Positions 13,076 to 32,468 are shown, numbered from the stretch's first letter. The stretch is DNA of 32,788 nt from an uncultured Candidatus Peregrinibacteria bacterium (GCA_903847465.1 CAINDQ010000096.1:1-32788); one strand, 5' to 3'. Numbers and translations: made by a program. The notes: generated by a model from the sequence alone, not told the origin.

Positions 13076-13112
13076 CGGAGTAGTTTTCTTGAGACCTCAA
13101 ATCAATAAACTC

Positions 13113-13140
13113 AATCCGCTAAGAAAAGCGGATTTTTCTT
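13113..13140 (+). terminator. intrinsic terminator-like hairpin in the lysC leader (possible attenuator)
   Basis: AATCCGCT-AAGAAA-AGCGGATT followed by TTTCTT (TTTTTCTTT run overlapping the stem end). Confidence 0.75.
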
Positions 13141-13157
13141 TATATAACCCACCAAAA

Positions 13158-14480: not shown

Positions 14481-14493
14481 CCATCCAAATAAT

Positions 14494-15495
14494 ATGAAAT
14501 CCAAAAATATTGTCATCGTAGGAGCAACAGGGGCAGTCGGCAGAGAAATGATTCTTTGTCTCAAAAAATGCCATTTTCCAGTAAAGAATTTGAGGCTCGT
14601 TGCTTCAGAAAAATCAGCAGGCCAAAAACTTGAAACACCATTTGGAAAAATCAAAATCGAGACCATTTCTGAAAAAGTTTTCGCCGAAAGCGACATTGCT
14701 TTATTCTCAGCAGGAAGCGGAATTAGCAAAGAATGGCGAGACTGCGTCGTGAAAAACAATTGTCTCATGATCGACAATTCTTCCGCCTTCAGATACGAAA
14801 AAGATACGCCGTTAGTCGTTCCTCAAATTAACCCAAAAGCCGCCCTCAAACACAAAGGCGTCATCAGTAATCCAAACTGCACCACGGCCATCGCCGCCAT
14901 GGCCCTTTGGCCACTTCACAAAGCTTTCGGACTCAAAAAAGTAATCGTCTCAACTTACCAAGCCACCTCTGGCGCAGGCGCCAAAGGCATGGACGAATTA
15001 CTTCAACAAACCAAGGAACATTTAGCCAACAAAAGACTCACCAAAAACATTTTCGCCCACCAGATCGCTTTCAACATCATCCCCCACATCGACACTTTCG
15101 AAAAAAATGGATATACAAGAGAGGAAATGAAGGTATCATGGGAGACGAAGAAGATCTTTGGAGATGAAAAAATATTGGTTTCTTGTACAGCAGTCAGAAT
15201 CCCGACCTTCAGAGCTCACAGCGAATCCATCGTCATTGAAACCGCAAAACCAATCACTCCTGAGAAAGCTAGAAAAGTACTCGAGAAAGCATCCGGTGTT
15301 GAAATAGTAGACGACACCCTAAGAAACAAGTACCCTATGCCACTAAACGCCTCAAACAAATTCGATGTAGAAGTAGGAAGAATCAGACAGAATCTCGTAT
15401 TTGGAAAAAATGGCTTGGAGTTTTTTGTGAGTGGAGATCAGTTATTGAGAGGCGCCGCTTTGAACGCCGTTGAAATCGCTAAACTATTCATTTAA
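14494..15495 (+). CDS. asd: aspartate-semialdehyde dehydrogenase
   Basis: IVGATGAVGREM, DNSSAFRYE, SNPNCTTAI active-site Cys. Confidence 0.94.
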   Translation: MKSKNIVIVGATGAVGREMILCLKKCHFPVKNLRLVASEKSAGQKLETPFGKIKIETISEKVFAESDIALFSAGSGISKEWRDCVVKNNCLMIDNSSAFRYEKDTPLVVPQINPKAALKHKGVISNPNCTTAIAAMALWPLHKAFGLKKVIVSTYQATSGAGAKGMDELLQQTKEHLANKRLTKNIFAHQIAFNIIPHIDTFEKNGYTREEMKVSWETKKIFGDEKILVSCTAVRIPTFRAHSESIVIETAKPITPEKARKVLEKASGVEIVDDTLRNKYPMPLNASNKFDVEVGRIRQNLVFGKNGLEFFVSGDQLLRGAALNAVEIAKLFI

Positions 15496-15506
15496 TCATT
15501 ATAAAC

Positions 15507-16250
15507 ATGAAAATAGCTTTGATCGGATTTGGTGGAATGGGCAAGACCCTGCACCGAATTGCCCAAGAACGCGGCCATGAAATTTCAATCATCATCGACC
15601 CAAAAGACCCCTCAGCAACTCATAAAACCTTGGTAGAAGCTGATTTGAAAACAGTCGATACAGTCATTGATTTTTCAAGCGCAGAAGCCATTTTAGACAA
15701 TATCAAAACTTGCCACGATTCAGGCACAAATCTAGTTGTCGGCACCACTGGTTGGTACGATAAAGTACCAACAATAAAAGATTCTTTGCAAGATAACGGA
15801 ATCGGATTTCTCTGGTCTTCCAATTTTTCTATCGGCGTAAATTTATACTTTGCCATCGTGGAAAAAGCCGCAAAATTGATCAATTCTTTCGACGAATATG
15901 ACGTTTGGGGCCACGAAATTCACCACTACAACAAAGCTGATTCCCCTTCCGGCACTGCAAAAACTCTCGAGAAAATTCTGCTTGATAATATTGGCAGAAA
16001 AACAGCCGTTGTGGAAGATCGCCTAAACCGCAGAAGAGAAGACAATGAAATTCATTTTTCGTCCGTTAGAGGTGGTTTGGTAAATTTCGGACACACCATC
16101 GGATTTGATTCTCCAGCTGATACAATCACCATTTCTCACAGTGCCAGAAACCGCGATGGATACGCTCTGGGAGCCATAAAAGCCGCTGAGTGGCTACAAG
16201 GTAAAAAAGGCTATTTTGAAATGAAAGATTTCCTAAATTTTAACTCCTAA
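15507..16250 (+). CDS. dapB: 4-hydroxy-tetrahydrodipicolinate reductase
   Basis: IGFGGMGKTLHRIA, VVGTTGW, EIHHYNKADSPSGTAKTL. Confidence 0.94.
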   Translation: MKIALIGFGGMGKTLHRIAQERGHEISIIIDPKDPSATHKTLVEADLKTVDTVIDFSSAEAILDNIKTCHDSGTNLVVGTTGWYDKVPTIKDSLQDNGIGFLWSSNFSIGVNLYFAIVEKAAKLINSFDEYDVWGHEIHHYNKADSPSGTAKTLEKILLDNIGRKTAVVEDRLNRRREDNEIHFSSVRGGLVNFGHTIGFDSPADTITISHSARNRDGYALGAIKAAEWLQGKKGYFEMKDFLNFNS

Positions 16251-16254
16251 AACT

Positions 16255-17139
16255 ATGAAAAGAAAATATGCAGGGACATGGACAGCCTTAATCACTCCCT
16301 TCAAAATTGATGGCAGTGTTGACTACGAAGCCCTCCGAAATTTAGTCAAAAAACAGATCGAAGGAGGTATTACCGGAATAGTTCCTATCGGCACAACAGG
16401 CGAATCTCCAACCATCGAACAAGAAGAAGCAAAGAAAATTTTTGAAACCATAGTAGAAGAAGCCAAAGGCAAAATCATGGTGATGGCTGGCACAGGAAGT
16501 AATTCCACAAAACACGCAGTCGAACATACAAAAATAGCAAAAGAAGCAGGAGTAGACGCTTGCCTCGTTGTTTGCCCTTATTACAACAAACCTACTCAGA
16601 ACGGCTTACGTCTGCATTTCCTGGAAATCGCCAAAGTAGGCCTCCCTGTAATCGTTTATAACATCAAAGGCCGCACCGGAATCAACATGACTACCGATAC
16701 GCTTATGATTCTCGCCGAAAATGAAATGATCGTCGGAGTCAAAGAAGCCAGTGGAGACATCAATCAAATGAAAGAAGTGATTGATCGCAGACCAGAAAAT
16801 TTCACCGTTTTGTCTGGAGATGATGGCTTAACTCTCGAACTAATAAAACTAGGCGGCGATGGCGTTGTGTCAGTCGCTTCAAATGTTATGCCAAAAGAAG
16901 TTTCGGCAATGGTTGAAAACGCTCTAGCCGGAAACACAGATCAGGCTGCCGAAATCAACGAGAACCTAAAATTACTCTTCAAAGATTTATTTATCGAAAC
17001 CAATCCAATTCCAGTAAAATATTGTGCTCACAAAATGGGACTTTGCGAACTTATTTATCGTTTACCAATGTGTCCTCCGTCAAATGAAGCAGGCAATATT
17101 CTCGATGAAACTTTAAAAACTTATAACCTTGTGAACTAA
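16255..17139 (+). CDS. dapA: 4-hydroxy-tetrahydrodipicolinate synthase
   Basis: GIVPIGTTGESPTI, VVCPYYNKPTQNGL, GVKEASGDINQM. Confidence 0.95.
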   Translation: MKRKYAGTWTALITPFKIDGSVDYEALRNLVKKQIEGGITGIVPIGTTGESPTIEQEEAKKIFETIVEEAKGKIMVMAGTGSNSTKHAVEHTKIAKEAGVDACLVVCPYYNKPTQNGLRLHFLEIAKVGLPVIVYNIKGRTGINMTTDTLMILAENEMIVGVKEASGDINQMKEVIDRRPENFTVLSGDDGLTLELIKLGGDGVVSVASNVMPKEVSAMVENALAGNTDQAAEINENLKLLFKDLFIETNPIPVKYCAHKMGLCELIYRLPMCPPSNEAGNILDETLKTYNLVN

Positions 17140-18380
17140 TGAACGAAGAAGTTTTGTATTTTCCAAAAGAAGACATCGTCAAAGCAACTGATCGATTTCA
17201 GACACCTTTCTTTTTGTATGAAGAAAAAAAACTACGCTCAAATTGTCAGATTTTCAGAGATTCCTTCAAGAAATACTTTCCTGATTTTTGGCCGCTGTAT
17301 GCCATAAAAGCAAACAACAACCCAGAAATACTTAAAATAATTTCATCCGAAGGATTCGGCGGAGATTGTTCCAGTGAATCAGAAGCTTGGATCTGTGAAA
17401 AATTAGGAATCGAAACAATGTATACCGGAAACTACACCACCAAAGAAGAGTTTGAATTCGTAAAAAACAAATGTCTGATTTTGAATCTCGATGACTTAAG
17501 CATGCTAGGTGCAGTCGCAGAACTCGGCATGCCGGAGACCTTATCTTTCAGAATAAATCCAGGTGTCGGAAAAGGTTTCAACAAAGATAACGTCTTTGCT
17601 GGACCAGACGCAAAATACGGAATTCCATTCGAAAAGGCTTATGAAGCCTATCAAAAAGCCAGAGATTTAGGAGTGAAACATTTCGGAATTCACATGATGA
17701 CAGGCACCAATGTGCCATTGGAAGAAAGTAATTATTTCGCCAACATCGTCGAAAAACTATTCGACATTATCGCAGATATAAAAGAAAAATCCGGCATCGA
17801 AATTGAATTTATGAATATCGGCGGAGGCTTTGGCGTTCCCTATCGCCCGGAAGAAAAAAGCCTCGACATGGACTTTGTGGCAAAAAGTATTCGCGAAGTT
17901 TTCGATAAAAAATGTAAAGAATTGAACTTGAAAGAACCAAGACTGCTTGCAGAACCTGGCAGATGGATCTCTGCAAACGCCGGATGGTTAATCGGGAAAG
18001 TTCACATCATCAAAGATTCTTACAAAAAATTCGTAGGCGTAGATTTCAGTAGTAACGACATGCCACGCCCCGCTATTTACGGAGCATATCATCACGTTTC
18101 AGTAATCAAAACCAAAGAAACAATTGAAAAAGAAACCGTCTCCATCGTTGGCAGAATCTGCGAAAACAGTGATCAGTTAGCCCGCGACAGAGAACTTCCA
18201 AAATTAGATATCGGCGATATTGTAGTCATTCACAATTGCGGAGGACACGCCTACACCATGGGCCATAATTACAATGGCCGTCTTCGTCGCGCCGAATATT
18301 TGATCGAAGAAAACGGCAATTTCCGAAAAATCCGCCGAGCCGAAACTATCGAAGATTTATACAAAACTTGCGAAATATAA
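17139..18380 (+). CDS. lysA: diaminopimelate decarboxylase
   Basis: YAIKANNNPEIL PLP-Lys motif, NIGGGFGVPY, EPGRW; overlaps the dapA stop. Confidence 0.9.
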   Translation: MNEEVLYFPKEDIVKATDRFQTPFFLYEEKKLRSNCQIFRDSFKKYFPDFWPLYAIKANNNPEILKIISSEGFGGDCSSESEAWICEKLGIETMYTGNYTTKEEFEFVKNKCLILNLDDLSMLGAVAELGMPETLSFRINPGVGKGFNKDNVFAGPDAKYGIPFEKAYEAYQKARDLGVKHFGIHMMTGTNVPLEESNYFANIVEKLFDIIADIKEKSGIEIEFMNIGGGFGVPYRPEEKSLDMDFVAKSIREVFDKKCKELNLKEPRLLAEPGRWISANAGWLIGKVHIIKDSYKKFVGVDFSSNDMPRPAIYGAYHHVSVIKTKETIEKETVSIVGRICENSDQLARDRELPKLDIGDIVVIHNCGGHAYTMGHNYNGRLRRAEYLIEENGNFRKIRRAETIEDLYKTCEI

Positions 18381-18391
18381 TAATAAAATTT

Positions 18392-19588
18392 ATGGATTTC
18401 AAAGCTTCTCAAAAATTAGAAAATTTGGCCCCATACGCCTTCAAAGAAATCAATGACCGTGTCACCGCCTTGAAAGAAAAAGGCATCACTCCAATCGATT
18501 TCGGAGTTGGTGATCCTTCTGATCCCACTCCTAATTTTGTGATAGAAGCCCTAAACAAAGGCGCTATCAAACATGCCAAAAGCGGCTATCCCAGCTATAT
18601 CGGCCTAAAAGAATTCCGCGAAGCCGCCGCCCAATATATGCAAAGAAGATTCAATGTTTCCCTAAATCCAGAAACCGAAATCACCTCAAACATCGGCTCC
18701 AAAGAAGCCATCTTCAATTTCCCACAAGCTTTCCTAGAGCAAGACGACTACGTCATAATCCCCTCTCCGGGGTATCCACCAATGAAAACCGGCACCACTT
18801 TTGCTGGAGGAAAATGTTACTTCACACCTCTTCTTGAAAAAAATAATTTCCTGATCGATTTCGAAAGCATCCCAAAAGAAATAGCAGAGAAAGCCAAAAT
18901 CATCTGGTTGAATTATCCAAATTCTCCAACAGGAGCAGTCGCCACCAAAGAATATTACAAAAAATTAATCGATTGGGCCCACACCCACAACATCATCATC
19001 GCCGCAGACGAAGGCTGTTATATCGACATCTACTTCGACGAAAAACCGCTCTCCATTCTCGAAGTAGCCAAAGAAGGCATCGTCGCCTTTTATTCTCTCA
19101 GCAAAAGAAACAACATGACTGGATATCGAGTTGGATTCGTTTGTGGAGATGAAAAATTAATCAGCATTTTCAAAAGACTGAAAACAAATATCGATTCCGG
19201 CACTCCAAATTTCATCCAAGAAGCCGCCATCGCCGCCCTCGACAACGACACTCACTGCCAAGAAATGTGCGCATCCTACAGCCAAAAAGCAGACATTCTC
19301 CTTGAAGCTCTAAAACAAATCGGCCTCGAAACTCACAAACCAAAAGCCACCTTCTACCTCTGGCAAAAAGTCCCAACAGGGATGTCAGATATCGAATTTG
19401 CCAAAAGACTTCTCTCTCCAGAAATCGGAATCGTTGTTACTCCTGGCAGTCTCATCTCCGATAAATGTGATGACGGAATCAACCCTGGCGAAAATTATGT
19501 AAGATTTGCATTGGTACCATCCATAGAAGAAGTCAAGTTGGCTTCCCAGCTGCTAATTGACAACCAAAAAAAGATAGAGCTACAATAA
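18392..19588 (+). CDS. dapL: class I aminotransferase, LL-diaminopimelate aminotransferase-like
   Basis: FGVGDPSDPTPNFVIEAL, LNYPNSPTGA, SLSKRNNMTGYRVGF PLP motif; last gene of the DAP operon. Substrate inferred from context. Confidence 0.78.
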   Translation: MDFKASQKLENLAPYAFKEINDRVTALKEKGITPIDFGVGDPSDPTPNFVIEALNKGAIKHAKSGYPSYIGLKEFREAAAQYMQRRFNVSLNPETEITSNIGSKEAIFNFPQAFLEQDDYVIIPSPGYPPMKTGTTFAGGKCYFTPLLEKNNFLIDFESIPKEIAEKAKIIWLNYPNSPTGAVATKEYYKKLIDWAHTHNIIIAADEGCYIDIYFDEKPLSILEVAKEGIVAFYSLSKRNNMTGYRVGFVCGDEKLISIFKRLKTNIDSGTPNFIQEAAIAALDNDTHCQEMCASYSQKADILLEALKQIGLETHKPKATFYLWQKVPTGMSDIEFAKRLLSPEIGIVVTPGSLISDKCDDGINPGENYVRFALVPSIEEVKLASQLLIDNQKKIELQ

Positions 19589-20057: not shown

Positions 20058-21713
20058 CTACTGCACGCCATCTAGATAACAATTCTCACAATAAATTACT
20101 TCCAATCTTTTTGGAGAATAACTGGTTTTTATATTTTCCCCACACTTTGCACATTTCCTATCCCATAGGAAACCGGGATTTCGCAAACCAATCCTTTCCG
20201 CATATCTACAATCCGGACATTTTCTAGGCACAGAAATATTCATCTTCTTATAAAACTTGAGCTCGTTCGGTTGAATTTTGTAATTTTTTCCACATTCGCC
20301 ACAGGCCAAAGTCTCCATACAAAATTTCTCTTCAATCGTATTTGTATCATCTGGAATTTCGCATGTGGCAGGCATATATTCCTTGTTCTCTTTTTGTTTC
20401 CAACGGAATCCTTTTGAAATAGCTTCTTGTTCCGTCATCGGAAAATGATCCTTTGCCGCAGTTTCATTGTAAGCAAATTGTGAATTTTCTTTTGGAAAAA
20501 ATTTCCCCCATTCTGTACTCAGCCCGCCGGAGGAGGGCACCTTTTTCATATGAGCAACTATCTTTGCCCGAAGAACTTTATATTCCTCCTCTGAATATTT
20601 CTTATTAAAAATACTGAAATTCGCATTTTTTAATCCCACGCATCCGAACAAATCTCTCGAATTAAAACAAAGATCATTATAGAAACTATCATGACTGTGC
20701 GACACAAAAGTATTGAACGCACAATTGTTCAATCGCTCTACTCCAAGCCCTTCGTAGACCCATTCGCTATACCCCATTCCATACACATCACAACAATCAT
20801 GACTATTAAAAATCCAAGTACAATAAGAACAATCCTGCACTTCATATGAATCGAAACACTGATGGCAATTCTTTCCATTGATCAAATAATCTCCCGTACA
20901 ATTTTCCGTATTGAAATTTCGACTCGCACGATGCGGCAAATCTTTTGTCCATTGCAAAAAGTAATCTCGCGCATTCACAAATTTGCTATACTTGTTAAAT
21001 TCCAAAACAGCCTTCTTTGCCTCATATTCCTCTTTCGTACTTTGTTTGTTCATAATCCAGTATTGCTTATTCCTGAGCCCAAAACAGCCAATACAATCAT
21101 GGCAACCGATACAGTCATAACAGAACATTAAGTCGTTAGAATTCTGACAACTCTGACAACCAATACAGTTATAAAGTTTCGTGCTATCGATACAATCGTA
21201 GCAAAGTTCACAATGTTGCAAATAACTGCCATCATAAGAACTGCGCACCCTATTTGAATGAGTCAGATACATCGAATCCTCGCACTCCTCAATCACCACA
21301 CTTAGATAACAATTCTTACTGTCATAAGCTTGTTGGCAATATTCACTATTCGTTGGATTTACATTAAACAATCCGATTCTTGGCACTCTTTTCTGCAACT
21401 CCGCAAACTGTTCAAAGAACCCACGACTGAAATCAAAATCCATTCCATACTCAAAACCGTCATGTTTATCACTCCACCATTCTTCCGCTGAATAAACAGG
21501 AAAAACCGCATCTTCCGAATAAATCGAAACTATTTGTTTTCCAGATAAACTACTTTTCCTTTTATAAAAAGTCCTTTCGTTACGAAAACAAAGTTTGTTT
21601 TGCAGCCTACAATCAGGACAAATTTCAGGATTTGGCGCATCAAACTTTTTATAATAAGCCTCATCCTCTTTTCTGATTTCAAATTGTTTCTCGCAATTTT
21701 TACAATTAACCAT
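20058..21713 (-). CDS. Cys-rich protein, paralog of 23257..24912 (CPR 'caib/baif'-type annotation)
   Basis: 551 aa, about 39 Cys by hand count; Zn-ribbon-like CKNC..CPDC and CGEC..CPDC pairs, CxxC runs, repeated LRNKxYxxxNKQxSxEEYE motif. Confidence 0.8.
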   Translation of the reverse strand: MVNCKNCEKQFEIRKEDEAYYKKFDAPNPEICPDCRLQNKLCFRNERTFYKRKSSLSGKQIVSIYSEDAVFPVYSAEEWWSDKHDGFEYGMDFDFSRGFFEQFAELQKRVPRIGLFNVNPTNSEYCQQAYDSKNCYLSVVIEECEDSMYLTHSNRVRSSYDGSYLQHCELCYDCIDSTKLYNCIGCQSCQNSNDLMFCYDCIGCHDCIGCFGLRNKQYWIMNKQSTKEEYEAKKAVLEFNKYSKFVNARDYFLQWTKDLPHRASRNFNTENCTGDYLINGKNCHQCFDSYEVQDCSYCTWIFNSHDCCDVYGMGYSEWVYEGLGVERLNNCAFNTFVSHSHDSFYNDLCFNSRDLFGCVGLKNANFSIFNKKYSEEEYKVLRAKIVAHMKKVPSSGGLSTEWGKFFPKENSQFAYNETAAKDHFPMTEQEAISKGFRWKQKENKEYMPATCEIPDDTNTIEEKFCMETLACGECGKNYKIQPNELKFYKKMNISVPRKCPDCRYAERIGLRNPGFLWDRKCAKCGENIKTSYSPKRLEVIYCENCYLDGVQ

Positions 21714-21829: not shown

Positions 21830-23254
21830 ATGACCATCCAAGAATTAACCCAAACTCTAAATTCTCATCAACTCGCTTATGTGAATTTGGAGCTGAAAAA
21901 TCCACAGAATGGCGAATATATGTTGTGTGCTTTTCATTTAATTCCAGGCGGAACTCTTAATATTCTCCAAGCAGCATGTGAAGTTTCCGCAGAATCATCT
22001 ACTGGTACAAATTTCTTGGTAAACACCGAAACTCCTTTTTCAAAAGAGATGAACGCTTTAGTTTACCAAGTTGATTTGGAAAAAAGCATCGTTTATATCG
22101 CCTACCCAACTAGACTTTTTGATCGTAATGGAAATATTCAGAATATTCTTACCTACATTGTCGGTAACGTTTTGGGCATGAAAGAAATCAACGCTTTGAA
22201 ATTACTCGATGTTTGGTTTCCACCAGCAATGCTAGAACAATATGACGGCCCTTCTTATACCATCGACGACATGAGAAAATATCTAAATGTTTATGGCAGA
22301 CCTATTTTGGGCACTATCATCAAACCAAAGATGGGACTTACTTCTGCTGAATATGCTGAAGTGTGTTATGACTTCTGGACCGGTGGTGGAGATTTCGTAA
22401 AGAATGATGAACCACAAGCAGATCAGGATTTCTGCCCATACGACAAAATGGTTTTACACGTAAAAGAAGCCATGGATAAATCCGTAAAGGAAACTGGCAA
22501 AAAGAAAGTTCACTCTTTCAATGTCTCCGCAGCAGATTACGAGACGATGATTAAAAGATGTGAAATGATTAAAAATGCCGGATTCGAACCAGGCAGTTAC
22601 GCTTTCCTGATTGACGGAACAACCGCTGGTTGGATGGCCGTCCAAACTCTTCGCCGAAAATATCCAGACGTATTCATCCATTTTCATAGAGCAGGTCACG
22701 GAGCTTTCACCAGAAAAGAAAATCCAATTGGTTTCACCGTATTAATTCTTTCCAAATTCGCCAGACTTGCTGGTGCTTCCGGTATCCACACAGGAACTGC
22801 AGGCGTTGGAAAAATGGCTGGCAGTCCAGAAGATGATATCACCGCAGCTCATGGCATTTTGTATTTCGCCTCTCAAGGACATATCTTTCACCAATCTTGG
22901 GCAACTATTCCTGAAAAAGATGAAAACGCCGAAGGTCTCACCAAAGAATCTGCCGCAAATCATGAAATTTTGCATGACGACAGTTGGAGAGGAATCAAAA
23001 AATGCTGCCCAATTATTTCAGGCGGCTTAAATCCTACCTTGCTAAAACCATTTATAGACGTGATGGGAAACACCGACTTCATCACCACTATGGGAGCTGG
23101 TTGCCATGCTCATCCAAAGGGAACAAAAGCAGGAGCAACAGCCTTAGTTCAATCTTGCGAAGCTTATTTGAAAGGAATGGATATCCACGAATACGCCAAA
23201 GATCACGTTGAACTAGCCGAAGCAATCGAATTCTTCGAGAAAAAGAAGAAGTAG
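21830..23254 (+). CDS. rbcL: ribulose-bisphosphate carboxylase, form II/III-like
   Basis: IIKPKMGL, GGDFVKNDEPQ (carbamylated Lys motif), HFHRAGHGAFTR, HTGTAGVGKMAG (loop 6 Lys), ISGGLNP. Confidence 0.95.
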   Translation: MTIQELTQTLNSHQLAYVNLELKNPQNGEYMLCAFHLIPGGTLNILQAACEVSAESSTGTNFLVNTETPFSKEMNALVYQVDLEKSIVYIAYPTRLFDRNGNIQNILTYIVGNVLGMKEINALKLLDVWFPPAMLEQYDGPSYTIDDMRKYLNVYGRPILGTIIKPKMGLTSAEYAEVCYDFWTGGGDFVKNDEPQADQDFCPYDKMVLHVKEAMDKSVKETGKKKVHSFNVSAADYETMIKRCEMIKNAGFEPGSYAFLIDGTTAGWMAVQTLRRKYPDVFIHFHRAGHGAFTRKENPIGFTVLILSKFARLAGASGIHTGTAGVGKMAGSPEDDITAAHGILYFASQGHIFHQSWATIPEKDENAEGLTKESAANHEILHDDSWRGIKKCCPIISGGLNPTLLKPFIDVMGNTDFITTMGAGCHAHPKGTKAGATALVQSCEAYLKGMDIHEYAKDHVELAEAIEFFEKKKK

Positions 23255-23256
23255 GA

Positions 23257-24912
23257 TTACTTTATAAATTTCAGATATTCCTCTTCAGACAAAATCCTTC
23301 CGTCGTACTCTTTTGGCCAATTTGTCTGAATTTTCTCGCCTGATTTTGCACAAACTGCATCACGAAGTTCACCATTAAAAGGCATCTGCGCAAAATTATC
23401 CTGCAGACGATGAACATAGTAATCATGAGGCAATGGCCCTTTTATTTTCTTAGCAAACTCAATATCACTTTTGGTAACCTGAAAAGATCTCTTATATTTT
23501 TCATCCCAAAAAATCTGCTCGGTTAGCCATTTTTCTTTTTCAGGACTTAAGTCATTATAAGTATCTGGAATCATCTCGATTTCAGCAGTTTTAACATTTT
23601 TTCTTTCCACCGGTCCTCCCTCTCTAAAGCCAAAATCCTCCGGCTTATCAATCGGAAAATGAAATCCGGAAAAACTTTCCTCATAAGGATTCGGAGCAAA
23701 GTAACCAGGGAAAAACTTCCCCCATTCGCCAGCATTCTTCATCTGTAAAACTATTTTTTCACGCAAAATTTCATATTCTTTCTCAGAGTATTGTTTATTG
23801 AAAATACAATATTTTTTATTCACCAAACCACAACAACCAAAACAATAATGGCAATTTTGGAGATAAGCTGAGTATTCCACAAATCTACAGTGGGCAACGC
23901 TAAAAGAGAAAATCGCATAATAAGAAAAAACCGGCAGAGAAGTCATAAAAGTCAGCTCACCACCAACCGTTCCCAGAGAATCTAAAGTTGCCTTAGCGTC
24001 AGGTCCGGAAAAACAATCGTTAGCACAATTTTCATGTTTTGAAAGCAGATAGCAATTCTCACAGTTCTTGCATTGTCTAATAAAATTACCAGAAGAATCT
24101 TCACACTGCTCAATCTGCAAAGCCCTATGCCATGCCGTATCTAACATCATTTTACTAAAAAATTCTTTTGCCTTCTCGTAAGCTTTTCTGGATGTAAAAT
24201 CCCACATCGCCTTCTGTTCCTCAAATTCTTCTTTTGAAAGCTGTTTGTTCCCAAAGCAATAACTCTTATTGCGAAGATTAAAACAAAAAAGACAATTACT
24301 ACAATCACGACAATCATACATAAAGGCGGAATCACTCACCATTTTGCAATTCAATAAAAATAAACTATTAAAACAGTTCGCAGAATTTATCAGATCAAAA
24401 CATAATTCTGAATAATAAGCGGAAACACCATAGTGAGCATTCTTACAATGATCGCATTCATAACAATAGGTACAATCCTCACAATATTGACCTGAATGGC
24501 AAAGGTAACAATTTTTACTGTAATACCAATCATCGGTATATTCGCAATTATGATTATGACTCTCAAAAACATGTGGTATTGGACATTTTTGAAACAATTC
24601 CCAAGCTTGCTCAAAAAAACCTCTAGAAGGATCGAAATCTCTCGATGGCGGATTACTATTTTCGAACCATTCTTTCCTTTTCCAGACAGGATAAACACAA
24701 TCCGGACGGAAAACAGAAATGATCTGCTCGCCAGTTTTGTCACATTTTCTCTTATGCAAATTCCACTGCGGCCAAAAAGCCCCTAACTCTCGGAATCTAT
24801 ATTTCGGCGTAACATTCGGCAAACTATCACCAAACCCAAACTTCTCTCGAAGCTTCATTTCAAGCTCAGAAACCTCAAATTTTTGACCCGAAATACTACA
24901 AATACTTTGCAT
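23257..24912 (-). CDS. Cys-rich protein, paralog of 20058..21713
   Basis: 551 aa; shares SRGFFEQ, NLRNKSYCFGNKQLSKEEFEEQK and CGLVNKKYCIFNKQYSEKEYEILREKI with its paralog. Confidence 0.8.
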   Translation of the reverse strand: MQSICSISGQKFEVSELEMKLREKFGFGDSLPNVTPKYRFRELGAFWPQWNLHKRKCDKTGEQIISVFRPDCVYPVWKRKEWFENSNPPSRDFDPSRGFFEQAWELFQKCPIPHVFESHNHNCEYTDDWYYSKNCYLCHSGQYCEDCTYCYECDHCKNAHYGVSAYYSELCFDLINSANCFNSLFLLNCKMVSDSAFMYDCRDCSNCLFCFNLRNKSYCFGNKQLSKEEFEEQKAMWDFTSRKAYEKAKEFFSKMMLDTAWHRALQIEQCEDSSGNFIRQCKNCENCYLLSKHENCANDCFSGPDAKATLDSLGTVGGELTFMTSLPVFSYYAIFSFSVAHCRFVEYSAYLQNCHYCFGCCGLVNKKYCIFNKQYSEKEYEILREKIVLQMKNAGEWGKFFPGYFAPNPYEESFSGFHFPIDKPEDFGFREGGPVERKNVKTAEIEMIPDTYNDLSPEKEKWLTEQIFWDEKYKRSFQVTKSDIEFAKKIKGPLPHDYYVHRLQDNFAQMPFNGELRDAVCAKSGEKIQTNWPKEYDGRILSEEEYLKFIK

Positions 24913-24958: not shown

Positions 24959-24987
24959 TTGACAAACAACCATTTTTAATGCAAAAT
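24959..24987 (+). promoter_or_regulatory. promoter of giant sigma-like gene 1 (duplicated element)
   Basis: TTGACA, 17-nt spacer, CAAAAT; closely matched upstream of gene 2. Confidence 0.65.
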
Positions 24988-25015: not shown

Positions 25016-28000
25016 ATGGGAGAATTTGGCCCCGATTCGTATTCTCAATTTGAGGATACTGATCCAACAAACAGGGAGGAAACTTTTGATGCAAAGGATA
25101 TTTCTGCAAATTTCAGGCAGCTTCCATCTGCGCCATCAACGCAAGATTCAGATGAAAATCCAGCCGCAGATCCTGATTTAGATTCAGATTCAAACACGAC
25201 TTTTTGCCAAGACCAGCCTGTTTCGACCACAGATTCCTTCTCCCCTTCAAGCGCTCCAGACGAATCTCCGCAATTCCAAGCCCTAAAATGGATAAACAAA
25301 ATCATTGCCCCTGGCAGCAAAAGATCAAGATTTCTCCTCTTTCTTGCAACTAAATTAGATCATCCATTTACCGCAGAAGAAGTTTGCGCTGGAACCGGCC
25401 TAACACATCGGGAGATCTCTAACATTGCTATTCAATTAGAACAAATATTGGCTAAAAATTACCAACCATTTGTCATCAATCCAATAGCTCCTTATTGTTT
25501 AAAAGTAAATCCTTTTGGGCCTACCGAAACCCCTCCAGATCCAAATCCAGATATTGAATATTCTGACCAAGAAAAAGCATTAGCAGTAGCCTGGACAAAT
25601 ACTCATGCAAAAGAAAAAAAAGAAGGATTCACTAAATCAATAATGCTTCTGTTGGCTCAAAATTTAGGGAAAGCCCTAAGTATTACAGAAATTGCCAAAA
25701 CCATAGGTCAGTCTGAACAAAAAACAGGAATGAAGCTAGGCTCATTATCGCAAAAAGCATATATAAATTCTCCTTATTCCTTAGAAACTTTTAGAAAATC
25801 AGGAAAATGGCGTCTGACCATAAATCAAAATAAAACTGTTGAAGATTTTACAGATATTGAATATTCAGCCAAAGACAAAAAAGAAGCTAACGATTGGTTT
25901 GAAGAAAATCTTACACAACAACACCAGCAAAAAAAACTTGCCCAGATTTTAACAAAAAATATGGGCAAATTCACAAAGCTAAGTGATCTCTGCAAAAAAA
26001 TATCAGATCTAAATCCAATTTACATCTCAAATTTAGCGAGAGTATTGGAATTAAATCTTAAAAGAATGAAGGCCCCATATCGTGTCGAAAAATTATATGC
26101 CCAATATAGAATAATTAGAACAGATTCAAAACCGGAAACAGACGAAGAAACAGCCACAAAAACCCCGGAAGCAATCCCTCAAACTCCAGCGACAGAATGG
26201 ATCACAAAACTTTTTAATCCAACCAGTAAAAGAGCTAAATTATTATTCTTTCTTGCGTCCAGATTAGATACTCCAACCACAGCGGAAGAAATTTGTGCAG
26301 GAACAGGGCTAAGTAAAACTTCAGTTTACAACTGCGCACGAGATATTCAAAAAATACTTGAAGGATACTCACATCCTTTTGTCTTTATAAACCAAGCCCC
26401 TTATTTGCTAAAAGCTAACCCGGAATACGATGAAGAATTCGCCCTAAATCCGGACATAAAATATACCGATGCACAAAAGTTAACAGCCATTGCTTGGTCT
26501 AAAACTCACTGGGAAACAGGATATTCGAAAAAAATAGCAATCTTCTTAGCCCAAAATCTTGGAACGACCGTAACAATTGATCAAGTTGCAAAAGCTGTAA
26601 ACAAAAGTCATAAACAAGTTGGGCTTGTTTTGGGAAACTTAGCTTGCGGAAAATATAAAGATTCCCCTTATGAATTAACTTCTTACAACCGAACTGGAAA
26701 ATGGCGTTTAACCATTAGGGAAAATCAACCTGTCCCAGAATTTTCCGATATACCATACAACGACCTCGATAAAAAAGAAGCTGCTGAATGGAGCACTTCA
26801 AATCTCTCGAGAGCAAGACTGCAAGAACTATCGGCAATTTTCATTGAGCATATGGGTAGTTTTATTACTCCAGACGACGTCGAAAAAGTTATGACAAGTC
26901 TAAAAAGAACATCAATAACCAGCCTTGTCTCAGATTTGGCCTCCACTTTTGAACAAATGAAAGCTCCCTATCAAATCGAAAAACTTCACGGTAAATATCG
27001 ACTGATTAAAACAGTCCCAACTCTCAATGAGACTTCAGAATATAACACTTGGTTTACAGCCCTTACTCATCCGGCAACAATCACCTACGCAATATTAGAA
27101 TTGATTGGTGAAAACAAACCAAGAACAACTTTTCAAATAGCTGACATAGTTACCACTTTAAATGAAAGAACCACCAAAGATGACCCGATAAAAGAAAACA
27201 TCAATGAAAAAAGAGTCACAAAAGCTCTGGAAAGACTCGCCAAAAGCCTACCAGAAAATAGTCCATACCAAGTAACTGGAAGTCAGGAAAAAGGCTATCA
27301 AATCATAAGAACACCTCTCTCTGAAAAACCATCAAATAAAGAAGTTTCCCTTATCCCTGTAGAAGAAGAAGTTGCTCCCCCAAAGTTAGCACCTCGCCCT
27401 CGATATGTTTCCCGCGCAGGTGGCCAAATATACGATGCCTTAAATCGTGAAATAAACCAGCTTCCCCGACTAAGTCATGAAGAAAATGTTAGACTCAGAA
27501 TGCTTGCCGGACCAATCGGCGATGACGTAGAAGAAACCGATTTAACAAATCTGGCAGCCTTTGAAGAATTGGTGATGGGAAATTTTAGACTCATTCGAGT
27601 AATCGCAAATATATTTGTAAAAGGATTTACACGAATGTCTTATGAGGATTTTGTGACTATAGGATATTTGGGACTAAGAAGAGGTTGCCTAAGATTTGAT
27701 CCTGAAAAAGGCAAACTCGTTACCATAGCTTGTCATCATATCAGACAAAAAATGGGTAGAGCAAATAACAGAACAAAAAGTGATGTCGTAATTGAACTCA
27801 AAGCATTAACTGGCATTAATATAATTGACAGAGCCGAAACTCAATTAAAAGAATCCGGACAAGCAGTCACTCGCGAAAATATTGCAGCAATCACAGGAAA
27901 AACTGCTGCTCAAGTTGAACAACTACAATTGTTGGCTTTGCCGGCTTTTAGCTTTGACAACAGTGACCGAAAACGTGAAAATGGCACAAAAGTTCTATCT

Positions 28001-29026
28001 CCAGACCGAAAAATTGCGAATCAAACAGATACTATAGAAGAATTGACCAGATCCACCCATGAAAATTATTTATTAAAAGAATTATATCGAGCCTTCTGCC
28101 AAATTCTCGGGATTAAAACATCAAGACAAATCCCCCTCTCAAAGGTAAGAAGCGAAGCGATGGCAGAAATTTTTAACATTCACGGAAAAACCAAGAAAGA
28201 AATTCTATTAAGAAGAGATTTATATATTTACATGCGAAACGCTGGATTAGAAATTCTATACGCAGGTGCTGATGGAACCTCTTGGGGCTCAACTTCAGGT
28301 GAAGATATAGGCGAAGATGTCGGATTGAGTCGTGAAAGAGTCAGTCAAATTGTGGCCAAAATTTTCGAAGGAATTCGTGAAGCATTAGAAGCAAATAAGA
28401 TTGCCATTCCTACTATTGAAGCCCTGGAAGCAATCGGAGAAAAACCCGGAACACTCAATGGAAGAAAACAGATCAAGGCAGCGGTAAATGCAGCCTTGGA
28501 AGAAGATACAGAGGCTCAAGATGATACCGACGATGCCGAAGACACCACCGACACCGCTGACATAGTGATTACCGACGAAACAGAAACTCCATTAACAAAA
28601 TTAGCCCCAATCAGAAAAAAAGATCTACGTCCATCTCTCAAAGCATCTCCGACTTTTGAAGCCTGGAAAAAAGAGATTCTAGGCAAAACCAACCATCCAA
28701 TTATTGCAAAAACTATCTTAAACAACCTTGGAGGACTTCCTGCAGGTGAAAAAAGCACTCCCGACAGGATCGTTCAAGTCTTAAGAATGAAAGAAAAATA
28801 TGAAAATCTGGTTCTAAATAAAACAGACCAAGAACTCCTCACCGACATCTTAACAACATTATCTGGAATTGAAGGCTTACAGTCAGATTCGTTTGAATTA
28901 ACATTCGAACGCGACAGCTCGGAATTCTGGGTCATAGACAATTCAACAATCACGGTATCCGACGATTCCCCTGAAACCATTCAGGAAACAATTTCAAATG
29001 AACTGATTCAAGCAGTGGGCGTTTAA
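25016..29026 (+). CDS. giant sigma-70-like protein with serial winged-helix-like modules (copy 1)
   Basis: About 1336 aa from ATG 25016; region 2-like EELVMGNFRLIRVIANIF...DFVTIGYLGLRRGCLRFDPEKGKLVTI, region 4-like EDIGEDVGLSRERVSQIVAKIFEGIREAL; two N-terminal approx. 300-aa repeats. Confidence 0.8.
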   Translation: MGEFGPDSYSQFEDTDPTNREETFDAKDISANFRQLPSAPSTQDSDENPAADPDLDSDSNTTFCQDQPVSTTDSFSPSSAPDESPQFQALKWINKIIAPGSKRSRFLLFLATKLDHPFTAEEVCAGTGLTHREISNIAIQLEQILAKNYQPFVINPIAPYCLKVNPFGPTETPPDPNPDIEYSDQEKALAVAWTNTHAKEKKEGFTKSIMLLLAQNLGKALSITEIAKTIGQSEQKTGMKLGSLSQKAYINSPYSLETFRKSGKWRLTINQNKTVEDFTDIEYSAKDKKEANDWFEENLTQQHQQKKLAQILTKNMGKFTKLSDLCKKISDLNPIYISNLARVLELNLKRMKAPYRVEKLYAQYRIIRTDSKPETDEETATKTPEAIPQTPATEWITKLFNPTSKRAKLLFFLASRLDTPTTAEEICAGTGLSKTSVYNCARDIQKILEGYSHPFVFINQAPYLLKANPEYDEEFALNPDIKYTDAQKLTAIAWSKTHWETGYSKKIAIFLAQNLGTTVTIDQVAKAVNKSHKQVGLVLGNLACGKYKDSPYELTSYNRTGKWRLTIRENQPVPEFSDIPYNDLDKKEAAEWSTSNLSRARLQELSAIFIEHMGSFITPDDVEKVMTSLKRTSITSLVSDLASTFEQMKAPYQIEKLHGKYRLIKTVPTLNETSEYNTWFTALTHPATITYAILELIGENKPRTTFQIADIVTTLNERTTKDDPIKENINEKRVTKALERLAKSLPENSPYQVTGSQEKGYQIIRTPLSEKPSNKEVSLIPVEEEVAPPKLAPRPRYVSRAGGQIYDALNREINQLPRLSHEENVRLRMLAGPIGDDVEETDLTNLAAFEELVMGNFRLIRVIANIFVKGFTRMSYEDFVTIGYLGLRRGCLRFDPEKGKLVTIACHHIRQKMGRANNRTKSDVVIELKALTGINIIDRAETQLKESGQAVTRENIAAITGKTAAQVEQLQLLALPAFSFDNSDRKRENGTKVLSPDRKIANQTDTIEELTRSTHENYLLKELYRAFCQILGIKTSRQIPLSKVRSEAMAEIFNIHGKTKKEILLRRDLYIYMRNAGLEILYAGADGTSWGSTSGEDIGEDVGLSRERVSQIVAKIFEGIREALEANKIAIPTIEALEAIGEKPGTLNGRKQIKAAVNAALEEDTEAQDDTDDAEDTTDTADIVITDETETPLTKLAPIRKKDLRPSLKASPTFEAWKKEILGKTNHPIIAKTILNNLGGLPAGEKSTPDRIVQVLRMKEKYENLVLNKTDQELLTDILTTLSGIEGLQSDSFELTFERDSSEFWVIDNSTITVSDDSPETIQETISNELIQAVGV
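25280..26130 (+). repeat. internal protein-coding repeat A1 of sigma-like gene 1
   Basis: KWINKIIAPGSKRSRFLLFLATKLDHPFTAEEVCAGTGL...APYRVEKLYAQYRIIRT aligns with A2. Confidence 0.8.
26189..27015 (+). repeat. internal protein-coding repeat A2 of sigma-like gene 1
   Basis: EWITKLFNPTSKRAKLLFFLASRLDTPTTAEEICAGTGL...APYQIEKLHGKYRLIKT; more similar to the gene 2 repeat than A1 is. Confidence 0.8.
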
Positions 29027-29048
29027 GCTTATTTAAGCTCAAAGACGC

Positions 29049-29077
29049 TTGACAAACGGCCGTTTTTGATGCAAAAT
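29049..29077 (+). promoter_or_regulatory. promoter of giant sigma-like gene 2 (duplicated element)
   Basis: TTGACA, 17-nt spacer, CAAAAT; spacer contains the palindrome AAACGGCCGTTT. Confidence 0.65.
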
Positions 29078-29105
29078 ACTACGCTAGTTTTTAAAGGATG
29101 ACTCA

Positions 29106-32100
29106 ATGGCAGAATTTGGCCCAGATTTGTATCCTGAAATAGAGGATGCTGATCTACCAATTAGCGCAGAATCATGTGATACAGAAGACATTTCTGCAAA
29201 TTGCAGACAGTTTCCGTCTGCCCCAGCAACGCAAGCTCCAGATATAAATCCAGCCGCAGATCATGATTTAGATGCATATTCAAACACGACTTTTTTCCAA
29301 GATCAGCCTATTTCAGTAAGCGCTTCCACCTCTCCCCTAGCTTCAACCGCAGATTCCTCTGCCCCACCAGACTCTCCGGAAGAATCCCTACAAGAAAAAG
29401 CCGTAAAATGGATTACCAATATTTTCAATCCAACCAGACACAAAGCCAAATTATTACTATTCCTTTCTGCCAGATTAAATACCCCAACCACCATAGAGGA
29501 AATTTGCGCAACAATGAAAATGAATAAAAAAGCTGTCCACAAATGCGGTTATGAAATTCATTTAACCCTTAAAGACCAAACCCATCCATTCATTTTCATA
29601 AGCAACCCTACTTATCTTCTCAAACCCAATCCAGCTTGCACAAAAGAAGACACCAAAAATCCAGATATAAAATATACTGAAGCACAAAAATCAAGCGCAA
29701 TTGCTTGGGCAGAAACTCATTTCACCAAGAGCTGCCTTTCAAAAGAAATAGCAATTTTCCTAGCAAATAATCTTGGATCTACTATAACCGTTGCTCAAGT
29801 AGCGAAGGCTCTCCATAGAACTTATGAAGAAATAAAGCCAATGCTAAAAGAGATAGCTTACACAAAATACAAGAATTCCCCATATCAATTACTAGCCTAC
29901 AATAAAATGGGGAATTGGCGTTTAATCATCAGAGAAAATCAACCTATTCAGGAATTTTCCGATATCCCCTACGAGAACCAAGACAAAACCAAAGCCGCCG
30001 AATGGGTTACTTCCTGTATCACAAGTCCAAGGCTACAAGAACTTTTGGCAATATTGATAGAAAATATGGGAAGTTTTATCACCACAGATATTATTGGGGA
30101 AAAAATCACAAACTTATCAAAAAAATCCCTTGCTAACCTTGTTTTAGCCTTGACTGAAAAACTTAAACAAATAAATGCCCCCTATCAAATAGAAAAACTA
30201 ATTGCTCAATATCGATTGGTGAAAATTTTAGGATTGGAACCTCTGCCAAGTATGCCAGAATCGGAACATTTCACTTCAGAAGCCATAGATTTTACCTATC
30301 CGGATCTAGAAACCCTCCCAAGCATCGCAGAACCGGCACATATTACTTCAGAAGCCATGGATTCTACCTATCCGGATCTAGAACCTTTGCCAAATATCAT
30401 CCAGCCGGACTATCCACCACTTGAACATTCAGACTATCTTTTTGCAGAAGAAATCCCTCTGAATGGAATACCGGAATACTTCGAATGGCATACACGCCTC
30501 ACTCCTCCATTTACACTCACCTACAAAATTCTGGAATATATGGGAGAGAAAAAAGCGTATTCAACTTTTAAAGCAGCAGATCTCTCAGCAGTTTTGGCCG
30601 AAAAAAACACCGAAACCAACGTTGCCCAAATCACTCCAACAAATGTCGAGAGAGCTTTAATCAGACTCGCGACTTGTCTCACGCACACAAGTCCCTACCA
30701 AATAACCGGAACCCCTGAGGCAGGATTTCAAATAGAGAAAAATTACCTTTCAGATAGACCAGTGCCTATAGAAATTGAGGAAGATTTGCTAGTTCCATTG
30801 GGAGATGAGCCTCTCGCAAAACCAAGCCTCCCTGCTCAATTCATTCCCCATGCCGGAGGGAGTATTGAAAAAGCTCTAGATTATGAAATAAATCAAATTC
30901 CGGAGATGAGCCACGAAGACAATATCAGACTTAGAATTCTTGCCGGACCAATAGGACCGAACTTAAAAGAAAGCGATCTCACAAATCCCACCGCCTTTGA
31001 AGAATTAGTGATGGGAAATTTTAGACTAATTCGATATTTCTCAAAAGCGCTAGCAAAAAAAGCTCCTCATATATCAGAAGGAGATCTTGTATCTGCAGGA
31101 TGGGAAGGCCTAAGGATAGGTTGTCTAAGATTTGACCCCTCAAGAGGCAGTCTTTCTACAATAACCAGTTGGTGGATCCAACAAAAAATGCATAGAGCCA
31201 TCAACAAAACGAAAACTGATGTCAGACGCGGATTACATGTGTGGTCCGATATAAGGAGAATGCAAAAAGCCATAGCCCACCTACAACACAATGGCATTCC
31301 TACAACACGTGAAAATATAGGAAAAGTTATTGGCAAATCCGTCGAACAGGTAGAAAGATTGCAGATAGCCGAAAAATCACCTGCAAGCCTAGATGGCAGT
31401 AACCATAAGAAAGCAGATGGTGACGACATTTCGCCACTTGGACAAAGACTCTCAGACGGTTCTGATGAGTTTGGAGATTTGGACAGATCAAAACATGAGA
31501 CTTATTTATTAAAAGAATTATATCGAGCATTCTGTACTATCCTTGGCATTTCAACCTCAAAAAGAATTCCTCTCGCCGAAGCAAGAGCTAGAGTATTGGC
31601 AGAAATTTTCGACATTCAAGAGAAAAATAAAAGCGAAATTAGATTAAGAAGAGATCTGTACATATATCTTCGTCGAACCGGAATCGACATGCTCACGGCA
31701 GACGCCGACCAAACCGGGACACTAGAAGACGTAGGAAGAGAAGTTGGTCTCACTCGAGAAAGTCCACGCCAAATCGAGTTAAAAATTTACCCACTAATTC
31801 GCAGGGCTTTGCATACCAATAAAGTAGTAATTCCTAGCTTAGAAGAATTACGCACCGCAGAAACAGATCCTGAAAAAATAGCATCAGATACAAACAAATT
31901 GGTTGGAGCAACCGCTACTATTCTTCTCCTTTCCGATTTGGAAGCTGAAACCGATCCCGAGGAATCTCCAGAACCAGAAGTTGCAGAAACAGAAATAACC
32001 AAGTTAAGAAAAACGGACCTCAGACCACCTCTTAACGCCGCTAAAATTGAATTTGCAGCTTGGAAAAAAGAGATTGTCGCCAGCGCAACTCACCCCGTCA

Positions 32101-32468
32101 TTGCCAACACTATCTTGATAAATCTCGGAGGTCTACCAGCCGGAGAAAAAGGAACAACCGACAAAATTCTCCAATTATTGAGATTCAAAGAACAGTATGA
32201 AAAGTCCCCGCTCAACAAAACAAATCAACAACTTTTAACGGAGATTGAAGCAACTTTAATTGAAATCGAAAATCACAAATCAAATTCCTTTGCCTTAACC
32301 TTTGATCGTGACAGAGCGGAATTCCAAATTGCCAACCTCAACCCAATCAACACAGAATCAACCTCCGTGATAGCCCCAATCTCCCTATCCACAATATTAG
32401 TCACTACAGAAGAAGCCGTTCAAAAAGCAACCACCCGCCAAGAACGAACCTCTGAACAAGTCGCCTAA
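29106..32468 (+). CDS. giant sigma-70-like protein with winged-helix-like modules (copy 2)
   Basis: 1120 aa; EELVMGNFRLIRYFSKALAKK..GDLVSAGWEGLRIGCLRFDPSRGSLSTITSWWIQQKM; EDVGREVGLTRESPRQIELKIYPLIRRAL. Confidence 0.82.
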   Translation: MAEFGPDLYPEIEDADLPISAESCDTEDISANCRQFPSAPATQAPDINPAADHDLDAYSNTTFFQDQPISVSASTSPLASTADSSAPPDSPEESLQEKAVKWITNIFNPTRHKAKLLLFLSARLNTPTTIEEICATMKMNKKAVHKCGYEIHLTLKDQTHPFIFISNPTYLLKPNPACTKEDTKNPDIKYTEAQKSSAIAWAETHFTKSCLSKEIAIFLANNLGSTITVAQVAKALHRTYEEIKPMLKEIAYTKYKNSPYQLLAYNKMGNWRLIIRENQPIQEFSDIPYENQDKTKAAEWVTSCITSPRLQELLAILIENMGSFITTDIIGEKITNLSKKSLANLVLALTEKLKQINAPYQIEKLIAQYRLVKILGLEPLPSMPESEHFTSEAIDFTYPDLETLPSIAEPAHITSEAMDSTYPDLEPLPNIIQPDYPPLEHSDYLFAEEIPLNGIPEYFEWHTRLTPPFTLTYKILEYMGEKKAYSTFKAADLSAVLAEKNTETNVAQITPTNVERALIRLATCLTHTSPYQITGTPEAGFQIEKNYLSDRPVPIEIEEDLLVPLGDEPLAKPSLPAQFIPHAGGSIEKALDYEINQIPEMSHEDNIRLRILAGPIGPNLKESDLTNPTAFEELVMGNFRLIRYFSKALAKKAPHISEGDLVSAGWEGLRIGCLRFDPSRGSLSTITSWWIQQKMHRAINKTKTDVRRGLHVWSDIRRMQKAIAHLQHNGIPTTRENIGKVIGKSVEQVERLQIAEKSPASLDGSNHKKADGDDISPLGQRLSDGSDEFGDLDRSKHETYLLKELYRAFCTILGISTSKRIPLAEARARVLAEIFDIQEKNKSEIRLRRDLYIYLRRTGIDMLTADADQTGTLEDVGREVGLTRESPRQIELKIYPLIRRALHTNKVVIPSLEELRTAETDPEKIASDTNKLVGATATILLLSDLEAETDPEESPEPEVAETEITKLRKTDLRPPLNAAKIEFAAWKKEIVASATHPVIANTILINLGGLPAGEKGTTDKILQLLRFKEQYEKSPLNKTNQQLLTEIEATLIEIENHKSNSFALTFDRDRAEFQIANLNPINTESTSVIAPISLSTILVTTEEAVQKATTRQERTSEQVA
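30237..30400 (+). repeat. 72-bp in-frame tandem repeat, about 2.3 copies, in sigma-like gene 2
   Basis: Units start at 30237, 30309 and 30381: E(P/T)LPS(M/I)..(E/A)H(F/I)TSEA(I/M)D(F/S)TYPDL. Confidence 0.85.

Follow-up and report, generated by a model that had tools for sequence, protein, structure and literature searches.

Tandem giant sigma-70-related proteins with serial winged-helix modules in a Peregrinibacteria genome

Introduction

What kind of regulator results when a sigma-like core stands behind a row of winged-helix modules? A sigma factor and a DNA-bound activator are usually two different players, and this question is raised by two genes, P1 and P2, in the genome of an uncultured Candidatus Peregrinibacteria bacterium (GCA_903847465.1; CAINDQ010000096.1:1-32788, the whole 32,788-nucleotide stretch analyzed here and called the window). 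A preliminary description, made from the sequence, read the pair as giant sigma-70-like paralogs with arrays of winged-helix-like modules, distinct from ordinary RpoD and loosely reminiscent of HARE-HTH/delta fusions. Here, we describe the reality of the genes, the nature of the modules, the state of the sigma core, and the occurrence of related proteins elsewhere, and we weigh what P1 and P2 may do.

Results

P1 and P2 are real, constrained genes

P1 and P2 are arranged in tandem at one end of the 32.8-kb contig (genome size, 1.39 Mb in 159 contigs). Both reading frames are open over the lengths originally given (1336 and 1120 aa), and the products are adjacent paralogs with 50% identity. The ATG codons at 25016 and 29106 align in the contexts MGEFGPD (P1) and MAEFGPD (P2), which supports both starts. 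Divergence between the copies amounts to a dN of about 0.4 and a dS of about 1.0 to 1.25, and codon position 3 is the most divergent. Therefore, P1 and P2 are real genes under purifying selection.

Both proteins follow one domain order: an acidic N-terminus, two blocks of modules in P1 or one in P2, a further winged-helix module (U4), the sigma-like core, an acidic linker, and a C-terminal extension (Table 1). This is the repeat layout that had been read from the sequence, and the extension, also described then as common to both copies, is the best-conserved part of the pair (∼107 aa; 61% identity). Searches for relatives of the extension found no genuine ones; a match at L092 among the genome contigs was rejected because the 614-aa protein there is unrelated and shares an FEAWKKEI motif by chance.

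Table 1. Coordinates of P1, P2, and related loci (window positions unless a locus is named)
Feature	Position	Strand	Basis or remark
P1 RpoD-type promoter (predicted): TTGACA, 17-nt spacer, CAAAAT	24959..24987	+	Consensus match
P1, giant sigma-like protein, 1336 aa	25016..29026	+	ORF; dN/dS
P1 acidic N-terminus	25016..25267	+	Probably disordered; net charge -17; 57% identical to P2
P1 block 1	25274..26128	+	U1a 25274-25519, U2a 25544-25831, U3a 25847-26128
P1 block 2	26183..27019	+	U1b 26183-26428, U2b 26447-26725 (modelled, pLDDT 92.3), U3b 26741-27019
P1 U4 module	27029..27319	+	Directly 5' of sigma core; common to simpler winged-helix/sigma fusions
P1 sigma-like core	27404..28420	+	Pfam, NCBIfam, and PDB matches; alignment to own RpoD
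P1 regions 1.2-2	27404-27790	+	
P1 region 3	27791-28015	+	
P1 insert	28016-28285	+	
P1 region 4.2 HTH	28286-28420	+	
P1 C-terminal extension	28610..28930	+	NLGGLPAGEK
P2 RpoD-type promoter (predicted)	29049..29077	+	Consensus match; near copy of P1 promoter
P2, giant sigma-like protein, 1120 aa	29106..32468	+	ORF
P2 single block	29394..30233	+	U1 29394-29639, U2 29658-29939, U3 29955-30233
P2 U4 module	30465..30749	+	
P2 sigma-like core	30846..31850	+	Pfam, NCBIfam; alignment to own RpoD
P2 C-terminal extension	32004..32330	+	
Winged-helix/sigma-70 pair and sigma-less array protein, secDF-priA	L114 2559-8525 (G069); L113 3045-8992 (G068)		
702-aa fusion and 179-aa protein	L148 2466-5119		Own genome, contig C106

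Each gene is preceded by a predicted RpoD-type promoter that matches 10 of 12 consensus positions, although chance alone can also produce such matches. Starting at the -10 element, a 27-nt stretch is found in the genome only at P1 and at P2, and the 62 bp 5' of each start are 81% identical, compared to 37% for the preceding 60 bp. However, the first 84 codons also show low synonymous divergence (7 of 21 4-fold sites differ versus 110 of 185; P = 0.03), so that the conserved promoter is weaker proof of selection acting on the promoter itself; some of its identity may stem from gene conversion at the 5' end.

The pair is distinct from the housekeeping RpoD

The same genome encodes an ordinary 393-aa RpoD adjoining dnaG on another contig (C55), as do the relatives; P1 and P2 are thus not the RpoD of the lineage, in agreement with the initial view that their architecture differs from that of ordinary RpoD. 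Phylogenetic analysis of the sigma cores placed the RpoD proteins in a tight clade (100/99) with P1 and P2 outside it. The two copies formed a group of their own (100/99), but its long branch leaves the exact sister among the fusions uncertain. Other large sigma proteins do occur in the order and the assembly is in 159 pieces, which would fit an ordinary RpoD architecture, an assembly chimera, or a pseudogene; nevertheless, we consider any of these extremely improbable, given the RpoD beside dnaG here and in relatives, two full-length copies with coding constraint, and flanking genes that match the same family.

The serial modules have a winged-helix fold

Each block of ∼285 aa comprises three modules in the order U1-U2-U3, and the two blocks of P1 are 43% identical; together with U4, this gives seven modules in P1 and four in P2. 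The modules are homologous by profile comparison (U3-U2, E = 2.5e-8; U2-U1, E = 1.1e-4), with a weak pairwise match of U4 to the others (E = 0.03), and a single tryptophan is invariant across 13 of 13 aligned modules. An AlphaFold (AF2) model built from an alignment of the 11 window copies (pLDDT 92.3; pTM 0.84) consisted of four helices followed by a two-strand wing. When compared to the PDB with Foldseek, the model matched the DNA-binding domain of SaeR best (OmpR/PhoB type; 4ixa; TM 0.62, probability 1.00), followed by ScpB in second place and then MarR-type and Z-alpha domains, all of them winged helix; E values were modest (0.009 at best), as is usual for so small a fold. The predicted structure thus identifies the modules as winged-helix domains, the fold first suggested for them. 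A single-sequence AlphaFold run of full-length P2 was unusable (pLDDT 36) and was discarded.

In contrast, the proposed likeness to HARE-HTH and the N-domain of RNA polymerase delta (RpoE) was abandoned. These domains share with the modules a winged-helix fold and a tie to RNA polymerase, but the delta N-domain (2krc) ranked only 23rd in Foldseek (TM 0.34, probability 0.54), and HARE-HTH was not matched in a Pfam search of P1, P2, and the modules. The OmpR/PhoB-type domain is the best fold match; however, P1 and P2 carry it in serial copies per chain, with no receiver domain and with an extra N-terminal helix that bears the invariant tryptophan. No window module gave a significant sequence match to the corresponding Pfam family (PF00486, Trans_reg_C). 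A related module from genome G028 reached E = 1.2e-4 and 20.3 bits, under the cut-off of 26.2, and weak profile matches of the modules included several response regulators.

In the recognition helix and wing, basic residues equaled or outnumbered acidic ones in all 11 window modules and outnumbered them in 10. The modules carry a modest net positive charge, except for U4 of P2, which is neutral. Winged-helix domains can also mediate protein contacts, as in ScpB.

The sigma core is retained but its DNA-opening part is altered

Both cores matched the NCBIfam rpoS_proteo profile (E = 1.6e-15 for P1 and 1.9e-22 for P2), with sigma profiles aligning over regions 2 to 3, and RpoS chains in the PDB matched P1 at E = 1.5e-9. 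Pfam region 3 (PF04539) was recognized in P1 (E = 9.9e-8; 32.4 bits versus a cut-off of 25.3) and fell under the cut-off in P2, PF04545 (region 4) was present under the cut-off, and the region 4.2 helix-turn-helix (HTH) of both copies aligned with that of the genome's own RpoD. Pfam region 2 (PF04542) gave no match to P1 at an E value of 5 and a match of 17.0 bits to P2, under the cut-off of 24; for this reason, "sigma-like" is the right term. By these profile comparisons, descent of the core from the sigma-70 family is well supported, and the earlier reading of a sigma-like core stands for descent and for regions 3 and 4.2; for region 2, the NCBIfam sigma profiles align (E down to 1e-15 in P1 and 1e-22 in P2), whereas the Pfam cut-off is not reached. 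Compared to primary and RpoS-like sigma factors (TIGR02393, TIGR02394, PF04542/PF04539/PF04545), P1 and P2 share the region order 1.2-2-3-4.2, the GxxGL...FDPxxG and RE..Q motifs, and the core profile matches. They differ in being 2 to 3 times longer, with the winged-helix array in front, the C-terminal extension behind, most region 2.3 aromatics lost, and an insert of ∼90 residues before region 4.2. Within the core, conservation between the copies is lowest in region 3 (29% identity).

Strand opening in Escherichia coli relies on Y425, Y430, W433, and W434, and the -12 base pair is read by Q437 (PMC4496690); R584 and E585 read the -35 element (PMC2613000). Aligned to the genome's own RpoD, both copies have a one-residue deletion at Y425, leucine at F427, and isoleucine at Y430. 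The tryptophan pair at W433/W434 is retained in P2 and replaced by His-His in P1, leaving none of the melting aromatics in P1 and this pair only in P2. The positions of Q437 and R441, and in region 4.2 those of R584 and E585, are retained in both copies. Q406 and E407 of E. coli region 2.2, which we take to be core-binding positions, are changed in both P1 and P2, making RNA polymerase binding by either protein uncertain. Nevertheless, P1 and P2 share 57% identity in region 2 (dN of 0.35 against dS of 0.85); therefore, the altered form is maintained rather than decaying. As judged from the alignment, the melting residues of region 2 are largely lost in both copies, which adds to what had been described before.

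Two other accounts of the pair, the main alternatives to the reading preferred below, turn on these residues. P1 and P2 could be conventional alternative sigma factors, forming holoenzymes that recognize a divergent -10 element and initiate on their own, the array serving as an additional, activator-like anchor. Regions 2 to 4 are profile-detectable in both, P2 keeps the tryptophan pair and the Q437 position, the region 4.2 HTH is retained, and alternative sigma factors often lack some of the aromatics. However, P1 has none of the region 2.3 aromatics and no Pfam region 2 match, the presumed region 2.2 core contacts are changed in both copies, and region 3 is poorly conserved, so that we regard this account as unlikely. 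Also unlikely, if slightly less so, is that the proteins are non-initiating repressors, competitors, or anti-sigma-like scaffolds that sit on -35-like DNA or on the polymerase flap and open nothing. Most melting residues are gone from both copies and those losses that are shared predate the duplication, yet purifying selection persists, and the -35-reading positions R584 and E585 are kept; on the other hand, P2 still has its tryptophan pair, and a pure competitor would have no need of regions 2 and 3.

Simpler winged-helix/sigma fusions occur in relatives

A profile of the full block (A2), run against 90 genomes of the order and 360 of the class, found the genome itself and one fragment (G028). 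The same profile found no credible protein in 389 genomes of the phylum, where matches in G407, G527, and G663 were rejected as false (a ClpB-like ORF, a large secreted-type ORF, and one broken frame). The viral, phage, and plasmid collections searched contained nothing matching, and such proteins are unreported in the part of the open literature that our search covered. The wider set of relatives came from a single-module profile. Thus, of the architecture that the preliminary description proposed to seek in CPR genomes, the full form occurred, among the genomes searched, only in the genome of origin, and relatives carried simpler winged-helix/sigma fusions.

In genomes G068 and G069, two tandem sigma genes (604 to 606 and 615 to 618 aa) lie between secDF and priA (gene names around the relatives' loci are read from translations), each encoding a U4-like module in front of the sigma core. 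The cores of the G069 pair pass the Pfam cut-offs for regions 1.2, 2, and 4. Both pairs are followed by a 610- to 631-aa protein with about three winged-helix modules and no sigma core, and this is likely an uncharacterized conserved regulatory cluster. A similar array protein of at least 754 aa also follows secDF in G028. The genome of P1 and P2 itself holds a third winged-helix/sigma fusion that is not RpoD (contig C106; 702 aa), with a U4-type module and a normal core passing the same three cut-offs, followed by a 179-aa homolog of the array-protein N-domain (E = 3.5e-8; best reversed decoy, 0.34). When 272 genomes of the class were searched with a U4 profile built from all fusions, matches were confined to G000, G068, and G069. 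Because simpler fusions occur elsewhere, P1 and P2 are an extreme and rare variant of a patchy, lineage-specific family; they are a rare sigma-70 family variant with an unusual sequence signature, unreported in the literature searched. The earlier account likewise did not include the simpler fusions or the array proteins encoded apart from them, in relatives and in the own genome.

In G068, further module-bearing proteins are encoded in a row that is flanked by hrcA/grpE-like genes and dnaK; at L116 3950-7523, four neighboring proteins, of which three or more have modules singly or in series, lie between grpE-like and dnaK-like genes on the opposite strand. Other unusual sigma genes were seen along the way. 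G036 shows that giant sigma proteins of another, independent kind exist in this order: its sigma-70 protein of 1515 aa begins with ∼1200 aa of unrelated sequence and is encoded upstream of a groL-like gene (L035 717-5264). G051 has adjacent sigma-like genes of 321, 578, 1021, and 336 aa (L149 5815-14028), the C-terminus of the 1021-aa protein carrying another, partial sigma region 2, and elsewhere a 946-aa sigma with a weak winged-helix match (L150 2806-5643). Four tandem sigma-like genes of ∼305 aa occur in G069 (L153 4630-8326) and likewise in G068 (C6 89214-92335).

The genomic setting of the pair

The window includes a run of lysine/diaminopimelate genes (13089-19588: aspartate kinase, asd, dapB, dapA, a lysA-like decarboxylase, and an aminotransferase), with a RuBisCO large-chain gene nearby (21830-23254). 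Two Cys-rich proteins (20058-21713 and 23257-24912) belong to a family with at least 20 copies in the genome and many in relatives, and they gave no strong Pfam match. RuBisCO and Cys-rich repeat proteins, in a class that includes families reading through TGA, point to a Peregrinibacteria-like lineage within the candidate phyla radiation. On the minus strand at 346-2565 lies a gene resembling type IV secretion system (T4SS) coupling proteins and HerA-type ATPases (T4SS-DNA_transf, E = 2e-8). On the strand opposite P2 and 3' of it, a gene that reads like TerC from its translation is cut by the contig end. Genome G005 has a Cys-rich neighbor with 88% identity; its gene order differs, and it therefore offers no clean empty site.

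These surroundings bear on whether P1 and P2 could be regulators of a mobile element or defense system, such as the MzaA-like sigma proteins of the MZA anti-phage system. The patchy distribution, the coupling-protein-like gene on the same contig, and matches to the phage sigma family phrog_351 agree with such a role, as does MzaA itself, a large sigma-70 relative with a long N-terminal part that the P1 and P2 cores match weakly. However, that match covers the generic sigma core alone and is far under the cut-off (43.7 and 57.6 bits versus 800 for NF041931), and no MZA partner genes were seen in the window. The phage, plasmid, and viral collections gave no match, the neighbors are lysine biosynthesis, RuBisCO, and Cys-rich protein genes, and the simpler pairs of relatives sit in a chromosomal setting between secDF and priA. 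We therefore hold a mobile or defense role to be quite improbable.

Discussion

The reading we prefer, at a probability of roughly 0.45, is that P1 and P2 are DNA-anchored, sigma-derived regulators, with the array and region 4.2 on DNA and the sigma remnants on RNA polymerase. We favor it because the modules have a winged-helix fold whose recognition helix and wing lean basic, because R584 and E585 are retained while melting residues are lost and the altered region 2 is maintained, and because simpler fusions with normal cores, as well as separate array proteins, exist. Points against it are that ScpB is the second-best structural match, that the net positive charge of the modules is modest, and that the presumed region 2.2 core contacts are changed in both copies.

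We infer a mechanism in which P1 and P2 would each have a promoter of their own that the housekeeping RpoD uses. Array and region 4.2 HTH would together hold the proteins at particular promoters or on particular upstream DNA, and the remaining sigma regions would contact core RNA polymerase, such that target choice would shift from -10 reading to the array. The two copies may divide the labor: P2 possibly still initiates, and P1 would mainly recruit or compete, probably with no initiation by itself.

As to origin, the ancestor may have been a U4/sigma-70 fusion such as the 702-aa protein still found in the own genome or the fusions of two relatives. The sigma protein would then have acquired winged-helix blocks resembling those that relatives carry on array proteins of their own, and these blocks would have been duplicated. 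In this simplest history, the direction of which we infer, the U4-sigma protein is the basic fusion and arrays usually reside on a partner protein, the two being joined in the window. A bolder and more doubtful version holds that melting was abandoned altogether, and that four or seven modules bind a long stretch of DNA in pseudo-sigma recruiters or blockers of RNA polymerase that would belong neither to the sigma factors nor to the ordinary transcription factors and that arose by the joining of a sigma gene and an array gene.

ECF41 sigma factors are small and carry their fused domain at the C-terminus. In P1 and P2, in contrast, all sigma regions are present and the winged-helix array is N-terminal; what they share with ECF41 and other ECF sigmas is a sigma joined to a regulatory domain (PMC3426412).

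P1 and P2 would place the roles of sigma factor and DNA-bound activator on one chain, in an extreme form and in a genome of only ∼1.4 Mb, with the DNA-opening part eroded and the rest retained. If the array reads DNA, promoter choice has passed from the core to a reader attached to it; should the proteins not melt DNA, they would be a pseudo-sigma that has been maintained. Relatives, with their simpler fusions and their array proteins on separate chains, may offer intermediate forms in the origin of the pair. The full arrangement, found nowhere else in the genomes and collections searched, looks like a new way to aim or block RNA polymerase.
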